Source: a bacterium
GTDB lineage: Bacteria; CSSED10-310; JAJRTK01
Length of the DNA stretch: 10,605 bases
Direction: 5' to 3'
Assembly: GCA_024278345.1 (NCBI GenBank)
Contig: JAJRTK010000274.1
Location: 1 to 10,605, forward strand
Part shown: one piece after another, positions 4,044 to 6,884 of the stretch
Position numbering within the stretch: the stretch's first letter is position 1
Layout: each line of letters opens with the position of its first letter
The notes under the pieces: generated by a model
Told to the model about the DNA's origin: nothing
What the model saw: the letters and a program-made list of their open reading frames with translations, nothing else
Databases searched by the model: none
Position numbers and translations under genes: made by a program

Positions 4044-6599
4044 TTACGAGCCGTCATGAGAGTTCCGGGACCAAGAGTTGTCTAAGGAAAAGACGCCGCC
4101 CAGGCGAAAAGTCTTCAAGGGGTTGGTAAAATCATCGGTCCATGGAGCGGCCAAGTGATCGGACTCGGGGGATCGCCAACCCAGGTGCCGTAGATCTGTA
4201 AGATTTAGTCTCTTCCCTTTCCCTTGAAGCACGCACCAGGCGGATGGCTGCTCGTATGGCCCCAGATCCCGGGTCTTGACCTTGCAGGCTCCTTCCAGGC
4301 CCACTTCCCGGCCAGCGGCCAGGACTGTTCGCCGTAGGTCGTGAAGGCGATTGGAGACGTGGAGGAGAAGAAGACCTTGCTCTCGCAGTTTTCTCTTGTA
4401 CAGACGGAATGCCTCCACCGTCAGCAGGTGAGTGGGAATCGCGTCGCCGGAAAAGGCGTCCACCACAAGAAGATCCAGACTCCCGTCGCCAAGCTGGTGA
4501 TCCTGGGCCAAACCGGCGCGGCCATCACCGGTGACCACCCGGTAGCGAGCCCGGGTATTTGCCAGGTAGCTGAAATGAGTTTCGGCGATGGTCACGCAGT
4601 GGGGATCGATCTCGTAATAGGTGATCTCGTCGCCCATTCCGAAGTAGGCCGCCAGGACTCCCGCGCCCAGCCCGATGATGGCGGCACGCCTTGGCGGCCT
4701 GGTCCGGGAGAGAATCTCTCCCAGGGGCGACTGCTCGTGAAAATAGCTGATGGGCCGGCCGGCATAGGGGCCGGAAATTGCCTCTGCCCCGTGGATGGTT
4801 CGCCCGTGGACCAGGATGCGCTTTCCGGCCTCCCTCGGTGCCTCCGGTGGGAGATCCAGCACCCGGTAGACGCCGTAATGATTTCGGACCCGCGCCACCA
4901 TCCGTGTGTCGCCCAGCTCGAAGGGAACCATCGACAAGCGGAGGAGGATCCCCACAGCGAAGAGCGCCGTGGCCGTTCGTCCGAATCGGCCCAACGGGCG
5001 GGCCTCCTTCCCGGACCAGCCTCGTGACGAGATCATGGCGATTGCCAGGAGTCCCAGGCTCAAGGGGTATTCCGCCATTCGAGCAAAGAGTAGCGGTGCC
5101 AGCAGGGCCGAAAAGATGCTTCCCAGCCAGCCGCCCAGGGCGATGAGCACGTAAAATTCGCCGTGGCGCCAGGCAACGGGTCGCCCCTGATAGAGCCTCT
5201 GATGCCCGGCCAGACAGATTGCGGTGAGCGCTGCCAGGTGGGCCGCGGCTCCCCAGAGACCGCTCCGGGTCCAGGTGGAGTGGAAAAGAAAGCCCAAAAT
5301 CGCCAGATAGGGCCACCACCGCTCATACCAGGAAATCTCATCACGGATCCGCCGCGGCCTCTTCGCCATCCTTTCAGACTGCTTCGCCGCATTCCGGGAC
5401 CGGATATTCGGGTGATGGGCCGGGCGCTCTTCTGGCCTTGCGAAGACCAGGATGAAGCTGCCGATATAAGCTGCCAGCGGCAAACTCCAGATGATGGGCA
5501 TCGACCCAAAATCGGTGGCAAGGGCGTTGGTAACCGCCACCAGGAAGGAAGAAGGTGCCGCCGCCAGGAGTAGCCAGAGAGCCCTCTCTTGCCAGCGGTT
5601 TCGTGGAACCTTGCTACGGCGTGCCCCAGAGCGCACCGACGGGGCGGGCCACTCACTCTCTGGCAGGCCTCGGTCACCCGTTGCCGGCTCCGCCGGCAAC
5701 GGGGATCCACGCAAGGCGGGACATTCCCGGGACTGTGGAATCGCAAGCGTCCGGACAACGCCTCGCTGTCGCTCGGCGGTCGTCCGGGCAACGCCTCGCT
5801 GTCGCTCGGCGGTCGTCCGGGGATTCCATCCCCCGTCCCCTGGCAGGGCTTTGCCCTGCACCCACCAGGGAGCGCGCTCATCTTCCCGTTGCAACGAAGG
5901 GCAACGGGATCCCAGCCCACGTTTTTGTGCGCTGCCTGCTTTTATCGGGTGGCCGGAATGGCCGCCGTCAACGGTCTCGCTGCCCGGCCCTGGATCCCTG
6001 CCAAGAATCGCTGGAATGGTCGAATTTCCCGACCCGGGCCGAAGAAGGACCGCCGTCATCACCCCTAGAGCGGCATGCACCACGTATCCCAAAGCCCACA
6101 ATTCCCGCTGAAGGTGCAGGCCCAAAAAGGTCTCCACAAGGATCGGGTAACTCAGCAAGGCCAGAAGAGAACCGAGGTTGGAGACAGCGTAGACACGGTA
6201 AGGCCGGACTCTCTCCGGAAGCTCCGAGTGTACCAGCCACTCCTGGCCGACGACGCTGGCTGTGGCAAGGGCGAAGAGGAGGGGCCCCACTCCCACCAAA
6301 AGATCCCAAAGCAACCCCGTCACCGGTGTTCCGTGAAGGTGCGCAGCACCCGGATCTAGCGGCAGGTAGAGCAGAGGGATGAGCAGCACCAGAAAATGCC
6401 AGTACCCCAGGCGCCGGGCAAGGGCATAGGCATAGAGGTAGGCGAAGAAGACCAGCCCTTGAAAGAACATCAGGCAGGTCGCCCAAACGTAGATCCCCGC
6501 CCCGTGGGCCGGTAACAGCATCTTGCCCACCATGGGCTCGGCCGAAAAAAGGAGAGCCGCTGCCGAAAAGAGGTAGAGCTGAAGAACAAGTAGTTGCAT
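4044..6599 (-). CDS. Membrane-fused spermidine-synthase-like protein with a repeat-derived insert
   Basis: This is an 851-residue protein of the fused MFS/spermidine synthase type: a polytopic membrane part followed by a cytoplasmic Rossmann methyltransferase-like domain. The start at 6599 (MQLLVLQLYLFSAA) is chosen because FSAEPMVGKMLLP and VWATCLMFFQGLVFFAYLYA (residues 18-50) are the family's usual N-terminus. The frame stays open further upstream only as low-complexity sequence. Membrane helices fill residues 1-185 and about 340-555. The C-terminal domain shows the nucleotide-binding loop IIGLGAGVLAAYFG (641-654), the acidic YYEIDP (661-666), VTGDGR (689-694), VVDAFSGDAIP (712-722) and the family-typical end PWTDDFTNPL. 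Residues of about 188-336 interrupt the membrane domain and come from palindromes and tandem repeats; homologues normally have only a short linker there. The true substrate is unknown, and many such fusions lack proven polyamine activity. The ribosome binding site is weak. Confidence 0.82.
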   Translation of the reverse strand: MQLLVLQLYLFSAAALLFSAEPMVGKMLLPAHGAGIYVWATCLMFFQGLVFFAYLYAYALARRLGYWHFLVLLIPLLYLPLDPGAAHLHGTPVTGLLWDLLVGVGPLLFALATASVVGQEWLVHSELPERVRPYRVYAVSNLGSLLALLSYPILVETFLGLHLQRELWALGYVVHAALGVMTAVLLRPGSGNSTIPAILGRDPGPGSETVDGGHSGHPIKAGSAQKRGLGSRCPSLQREDERAPWWVQGKALPGDGGWNPRTTAERQRGVARTTAERQRGVVRTLAIPQSRECPALRGSPLPAEPATGDRGLPESEWPAPSVRSGARRSKVPRNRWQERALWLLLAAAPSSFLVAVTNALATDFGSMPIIWSLPLAAYIGSFILVFARPEERPAHHPNIRSRNAAKQSERMAKRPRRIRDEISWYERWWPYLAILGFLFHSTWTRSGLWGAAAHLAALTAICLAGHQRLYQGRPVAWRHGEFYVLIALGGWLGSIFSALLAPLLFARMAEYPLSLGLLAIAMISSRGWSGKEARPLGRFGRTATALFAVGILLRLSMVPFELGDTRMVARVRNHYGVYRVLDLPPEAPREAGKRILVHGRTIHGAEAISGPYAGRPISYFHEQSPLGEILSRTRPPRRAAIIGLGAGVLAAYFGMGDEITYYEIDPHCVTIAETHFSYLANTRARYRVVTGDGRAGLAQDHQLGDGSLDLLVVDAFSGDAIPTHLLTVEAFRLYKRKLREQGLLLLHVSNRLHDLRRTVLAAGREVGLEGACKVKTRDLGPYEQPSAWCVLQGKGKRLNLTDLRHLGWRSPESDHLAAPWTDDFTNPLKTFRLGGVFSLDNSWSRNSHDGS
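5677..5703. repeat. Strong 12-bp hairpin within coding sequence
   Basis: CCCGTTGCCGGC (5677-5688), loop TCC, then the perfect complement GCCGGCAACGGG (5692-5703). It has the same GGCTCCGCC core as repeat copy A (1376-1390), and its outer arms recur in the hairpin at 5885-5908. It is the strongest stem noticed in the window. Confidence 0.75.
5749..5820. repeat. 33-bp tandem repeat, 2.2 copies
   Basis: Unit one is 5749-5781 and unit two 5782-5814; they differ at one base (A or G at the seventh position). A partial third unit (GTCCGG) follows to 5820. On the minus strand each full unit encodes an 11-residue block containing TTAERQRGV, so the repeat is in frame. The 14-base string CTGTCGCTCGGCGG, present in both units, also occurs in reverse orientation at 3278-3291 within the TetR 3' end. 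Confidence 0.85.
5838..5870. repeat. Compound hairpin within coding sequence
   Basis: An inner stem GCAGGGC-TTT-GCCCTGC (5843-5859) is flanked by CCCTGG and CCAGGG (5838-5843 and 5865-5870), giving a longer, interrupted hairpin. It is one of three palindromes packed into the insert. Confidence 0.6.
5885..5908. repeat. 8-bp-arm hairpin sharing arms with 5677-5703
   Basis: CCCGTTGC (5885-5892) pairs with GCAACGGG (5901-5908) across an 8-base loop. The arms equal the outer eight bases of the 5677-5703 stem, which suggests the two belong to one repeat family. Confidence 0.6.
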
Positions 6600-6665
6600 G
6601 GAGATTCCAGGAAGGGAATGAAGGTGGTGCCCGGGACTTGGGGCAGTGGGCCTCGTCCATCGAGG

Positions 6666-6696
6666 GTCGGCGGAGCCATCGGCCACCGATGACCAA
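6666..6696 (+). repeat. Dispersed palindromic repeat, copy B
   Basis: GTCGGCGGAGCC (6666-6677) is followed by CATCGG-CCA-CCGATG, a 6-bp stem, and then GACCAA. It shares CCACCGATGACCAA (6683-6696) exactly with copy A, which is reversed at 1363-1376, and the GTCGGC/GGCGGAGCC core lies next to it in both. It sits in the upstream leader of the membrane protein gene. Confidence 0.45.
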
Positions 6697-6884
6697 CCGC
6701 CGGGCAGTGGATGGCAAGTGGGGCGAGAATGGCGAGCAGTGGGTGCTGGACAGCGCCCGATGTGAGCGGAACGCAACTCCCGGGAAGAGATAACGAGAAA
6801 AACGCATCGTTGGGAAGTTGGAACTGAATCATCTTGCCTTGATCTTGTCGAGCAGATGGTGAAGTTGGACCTTAATTCGGAGGT

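Follow-up and report, generated by a model that had tools for sequence, protein, structure and literature searches.

A gene in the window (the whole 10,605-nt stretch of bacterial DNA analysed here) encodes a spermidine-synthase-like protein whose membrane domain contains a long, repeat-rich segment, which raises the question of what this segment is and how it came to lie within an open frame. The original prediction was that about 145 codons, carrying hairpins and a tandem repeat, had been inserted in frame at a loop between helices (5595-6030), as RPE elements are in Rickettsia. Indeed, the minus-strand frame from 6776 to 4044 was open for 910 codons, straight through the segment; the gene likely starts at the ATG at 6599 (residue 60), and its product matched NCBIfam NF037959 (MFS_SpdSyn, 1.2e-14). 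As no homologue was found at 1e-10 in seven genomes of the phylum, we used plasmid-borne homologues from Sphingomonas, Methylobacterium, Microvirga, Leptolyngbya and Pseudoalteromonas for the comparison. In the MAFFT alignment, the loop between two membrane helices measured ~143 residues here versus ~15-30 in the five homologues, all of which lacked the segment. The open frame and the placement between helices were thus as predicted.

The homologues aligned on both sides of the segment, in one frame, and the two sides encode successive stretches of a single protein. This speaks against an assembly chimera made of reads from two loci joined at a repeat. Such a chimera, which the distribution of the MAG over 550 contigs and the position of about half of the repeat copies described below (at most 250 bp from the end of the sequence pieces analysed) would favour, is therefore extremely improbable here. 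Elsewhere in the window, an ORF on the minus strand (223-1260) had a Pfam Cas6 C-terminal match (1e-10).

The repeats and hairpins that had been described were found as well. The 33-bp tandem repeat comprised 2.2 copies with a 97% match (two units, 5748-5813), and the hairpin with 12-bp arms was perfect (5677-5688/5692-5703, 3-nt loop); other stem-loops were observed at ~5838-5860 and 5887-5912. The single-strand DNA fold of 5677-5960 reached -79.2 kcal/mol, versus -61.6 ± 3.9 kcal/mol for dinucleotide shuffles (z = -4.5; none of the 200 shuffles folded as well). The borders had to be redrawn: in a BLAST search of the own genome, 5595-6030 matched dozens of loci (best E 1e-85) with a common part from 5700/5701 to ~5935, and the mobile part extends from 5701 to ~5946/5956, so that the range first proposed includes non-repeated flank on both sides. 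These flanks (5585-5700 and 5973-6020) were single-copy in the sequence examined and may belong to the host loop. They are what would speak for a low-complexity loop native to the protein family, with a similarity to the repeats due to convergence of GC-rich sequence. However, the window element shared 85-89% DNA identity over more than 200 bp with tens of dispersed loci, which refutes this explanation for 5701-5935, and the loops of the homologues are short; its probability is next to negligible. The features of the locus, and the copies found in other genes, are listed in Table 1.

Table 1. Features of the segment and its host gene (window positions), and copies of the same family in genes (contigs of the own genome)
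Feature	Position	Strand	Basis or remark
Host gene, fused MFS/spermidine-synthase-like membrane protein	4044..6776	-	Open frame, NCBIfam match, homologue alignment
Whole extra-long loop relative to homologues	5586..6014	-	MAFFT alignment, 5 homologues
Perfect hairpin with 12-bp arms	5677..5703		Abuts left terminus; outside canonical element; single-copy
MITE copy, dispersed family	5701..5946	+	Part common to other copies to ~5935, up to 89% identity
Left TIR GGGGATCCACGCAAGGCGGGACA	5701..5723	+	1 mismatch to family GGGTATCCACGCAAGGCGGGACA
Minisatellite, 33 bp x 2.2, within element	5748..5821	+	97% match; sister copies have 23/24/27/28-bp arrays
Family-wide hairpin modules (GGGGATTCCATCCCC; GGCAGGGCTTTGCCCTGC; CCCGTTGCAACGAAGGGCAACGGG)	5813..5915	+	Copy alignment, folding, core-pattern count
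Atypical right end, like 'type B' repeat (...GCTTTTATCGGGTGGCCGG), replacing family right TIR	5930..5964	+	Repeat comparison
In-frame copy with TSD	C278		Helicase
In-frame copy with TSD	C512		TPR/AAA protein
In-frame copy with TSD	C26		TPR membrane protein
In-frame copy with TSD	C205		Zn-ribbon methyltransferase, between two CxxC knuckles
Out-of-frame copy with TSD	C332		Helicase, apparently frameshifted already
In-frame copy without secure TSD	C124:2891-3079		AMP-binding domain of 1796-aa protein
In-frame copy without secure TSD	C321:17062-17390		Linker before ApbE
In-frame copy without secure TSD	Window gene		MFS/spermidine-synthase-like

Aligned copies from the genome had GGGTATCCACGCAAGGCGGGACA at the start and an imperfect reverse complement of it at the end, and were bordered by short direct repeats. 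A core pattern (≤2 mismatches) matched the own genome 263 times and the TIR pattern GGGTATCCACGCAAGGCGGGACA (≤3 mismatches) 413 times, versus 0 for both reversed controls; the search of the host genome that the original prediction called for, with a lack of any second copy as the adverse outcome, thus returned hundreds of copies. We counted 170 copies in 1.39 Mb, a sample that favours copy-rich contigs and therefore biases copy densities upward. Complete copies were ~170-340 bp long, with TIRs of ~23 bp. TSDs of 8-9 bp surrounded 34 complete copies (1.39 Mb; border slack of one or two bases), and exact-register TSDs (≤1 mismatch) were present in 18 of the 42 testable pairs of the first 1.01 Mb, versus 1% with shuffled right flanks.

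The family thus combines a length below 600 bp, many copies, TIRs and a TSD with the lack of a transposase gene, and it has its termini in common with an autonomous element (a DUF6399 relic in the own genome and full elements in cyanobacteria, see below). Because of the TIRs, the 8-9 bp TSDs and the candidate transposase DUF6399, we assign it to the MITEs, and presume that it transposes. It is highly likely that the segment represents a mosaic member of this high-copy bacterial MITE family, probably moved in trans by a DUF6399 transposase of the DDE type. Searches for the element DNA in 40 relatives and for the TIR pattern in 385 genomes gave no copies beyond the own genome, and the TIR was not found in viral contigs. 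An Rfam scan of the segment gave no relevant match; one miRNA match, below the cut-off, was rejected as chance.

Some copies lay inside or directly beside other copies and related repeats (e.g. C5:1050-1238 and C321:11781-12427), which suggests repeated self-insertion or recombination between families. Many contig ends (L160-L177 and others) lay in or adjoined a MITE, so the repeat probably limits and fragments the assembly.

The window copy itself had the left TIR only, without the canonical right TIR, and its positions 5930-5956 matched the end of another repeat type of the own genome, 'type B' (...GCTTTTTTCGGGTGGCCGGTACCATGACC). The best TSD candidate, found by eye, was CCGGCAAC (5693-5700) and CCGTCAAC (5965-5972), an imperfect match (7/8) that is not secure. 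As it implies a 272-bp insertion, which is not a multiple of three, we did not rely on it. Given the missing right TIR and this imperfect candidate, the window copy may have arrived otherwise than by a simple single insertion, and we class it as mosaic or decayed. Elsewhere, a 'type B' repeat (ending in GGCCTCGGTCATGGTACCGGCCAC) interrupts an ISL3 transposase gene (L056, own contig C5, ~350-540), where it is apparently flanked by GTTCAAGCG (by eye). Internal hairpin modules of the MITE recur in many other 'type B' copies of the genome.

At least seven host proteins contained an in-frame, stop-free copy. In the frame test, each TSD-flanked copy was excised by script, together with one duplication, and seven of these TSD-proven copies lay in an ORF of at least 300 codons; with the element present, five of the seven were in frame and stop-free, versus the 22% expected from copy lengths and open frames (p = 0.007). 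Two of the seven were removed by curation, since the copy at C124:8964 precedes what is likely the signal peptide of an MscS channel, while that at C364:3748 precedes purA, both being therefore probably 5'-upstream and not intragenic; in the secure intragenic TSD-flanked set, four of five were in frame. The direction of this bias fits the survival of harmless insertions, in a small sample of few genes.

The copies were also poor in stop codons, with a mean of 2.85 stop-free frames of six in complete copies versus 1.16 in shuffles. Tests on single copies gave p values from 0.002 to 0.62, and since the copies share ancestry, stop-poverty counts as one observation and not as independent evidence. 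The peptide of the window gene was matched in the same frame by many copies; others had stops there, and other genes used other frames. Moreover, MINISATELLITE arrays with periods of 23, 24, 27, 28 and 33 bp were observed within many MITE copies. The arrays inside genes, three in all and thus a small number, had periods of 24, 27 and 33 bp, each divisible by three. In ApbE (L080:16307-18457) and in the AMP-binding protein (L158:3-5390), the minisatellites at the MITE (27 and 24 bp, respectively) are in frame and extend the proteins by repeated peptides, AKRGENPRR and AERSAGVP among them.

When GTDB contigs were scanned with a degenerate TIR, matches appeared in Leptolyngbyaceae. In Shackletoniella, the TIR was followed by a reading frame whose relatives on plasmids of Acaryochloris and Crinalium are annotated as DUF6399. 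On the Crinalium plasmid (NC_019737.1), 31-bp inverted repeats lay around the DUF6399 gene, and the element, made up of this gene and one small hypothetical gene, had a perfect 8-bp TSD (CGTTTTCT/CGTTTTCT). The same linkage was observed in genome G041 (C158), where a 557-aa DUF6399 protein had a TIR on either side; in G042 (C59 and C283), with the TIR 36 bp past the DUF6399 domain match; and on own contig C188, where the gene stops at 524 and the TIR lies at 540-562. The own genome gave six matches to Pfam PF19936, fragments only, and an intact DUF6399 gene was not found in this MAG (87.9% complete). In Leptolyngbya sp. PCC 6406 (G043), we found ~86 TIR matches, many in short MITE-like pairs of ~95-138 bp, and no DUF6399 gene.

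DUF6399 proteins had in common the motifs DETFFG, SDxAxALIKLA and SSAxEGRNG and an N-terminal HTH match, which, as sequence features, fit a DDE transposase; we infer that they catalyse the transposition. A search of the DUF6399 profile against the PDB gave no solved transposase structure and only weak winged-helix matches, viral contigs gave no DUF6399, and in the literature we found no paper naming this domain.

The TIRs might instead belong to another transposase, such as ISL3 or another IS, with DUF6399 genes as passengers or frequent targets. Duplications of 8 bp are also made by other IS families, an ISL3 gene is present in the own genome, and one DUF6399 protein had a weak ISL3 DDE match (E 0.005). 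However, the gene adjoining these termini was DUF6399 in each of the three genomes named above, the own one included, and the Crinalium element, with its matched TIRs and perfect TSD, contains DUF6399 along with one small hypothetical gene. As for the other IS genes tried as partners, the ISL3 gene on C5 lacked termini of this kind and is broken up by a repeat of another type, and the ISAs1 fragment on C373 had ends unlike the MITE TIRs. We therefore consider another transposase unlikely. On balance, it is rather probable that DUF6399 is an unrecognised family of DDE transposases, i.e., a new IS family with TIRs of 23-31 bp and 8-bp TSDs, in cyanobacteria and in the sparsely sampled phylum studied here, with stop-poor MITEs that supply new in-frame protein segments.

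The cyanobacterial elements of Leptolyngbyaceae, Acaryochloris and Crinalium had nearly the same TIR (GGGTATCAACGTAAGGCGGGACA) as the present family, but the internal MITE sequence was unrelated in the copies read, and some contained a full-length DUF6399 gene. Like known bacterial MITEs (Correia, ERIC, Nezha and MITEPgRS among others; PMC10969869), the present family is short, non-coding and high in copy number, with TIRs, a TSD and termini shared with an IS; it differs in that these termini belong to DUF6399 and in its unusually many in-frame intragenic copies. According to the same 2024 review, in-frame fusions through intragenic MITEs are not unusual, and RPEs are found in frame at unusually high frequency. 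In Porphyromonas, too, a MITE has been described that contains a minisatellite (PMC4596501).

The original prediction of a dispersed palindromic element that invades coding genes and persists there in frame was borne out by the hundreds of copies and by the in-frame ones in several genes; its likeness to RPE held for this mode of entry and not for the family. Like RPEs (Ogata 2000, 2002, per PMC10969869), which are palindromic, ~100-300 bp long and in frame in unrelated genes as a tolerated extra segment, the present element is inserted in frame in protein-coding genes, whereas it has TIRs, TSDs and a candidate transposase, and the reading frame used differs between copies. The kinship to RPE is functional only, with RPE-like behaviour and MITE architecture. 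RPE families are ~150 bp long, with a conserved peptide frame, and are not known to have a TIR, TSD or IS partner. A protein-invading repeat of that kind, with a mobility that is not IS-based (an RNA- or recombination-borne hairpin repeat), would also account for in-frame copies in several unrelated genes, strong palindromes and stop-poor sequence. However, TIRs, 8-9 bp TSDs and the same termini linked to DUF6399 are signatures of a DDE transposon, and the TSD-flanked copies refute such a repeat as the general mechanism; for the window copy alone it could apply, and overall we hold it very improbable.

For the MITE family, we propose that copies landing in genes would mostly be purged, presumably by selection, and that the survivors would chiefly be those in frame. 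Their survival may be helped by a sequence rich in hairpins and poor in stops, and by insertion sites that fall in loops or between domains. In the window gene, the copy, together with growth of its 33-bp minisatellite, would have produced the larger inter-helix loop of the spermidine-synthase-like protein; the insert is presumably translated and the function of the enzyme probably retained.

The classic example of selfish DNA turned protein is the RPE, and how these elements move is unclear. Here, an RPE-like outcome is linked to the signature of ordinary cut-and-paste transposition and to a candidate transposase that can be named, which makes the process testable. In outline the original interpretation was right, with the wrong family; novel above all is the link to DUF6399, a domain of unknown function that gains a likely one. 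In-frame protein growth of this type thus extends beyond Rickettsia, with hundreds of copies of the element in one genome.
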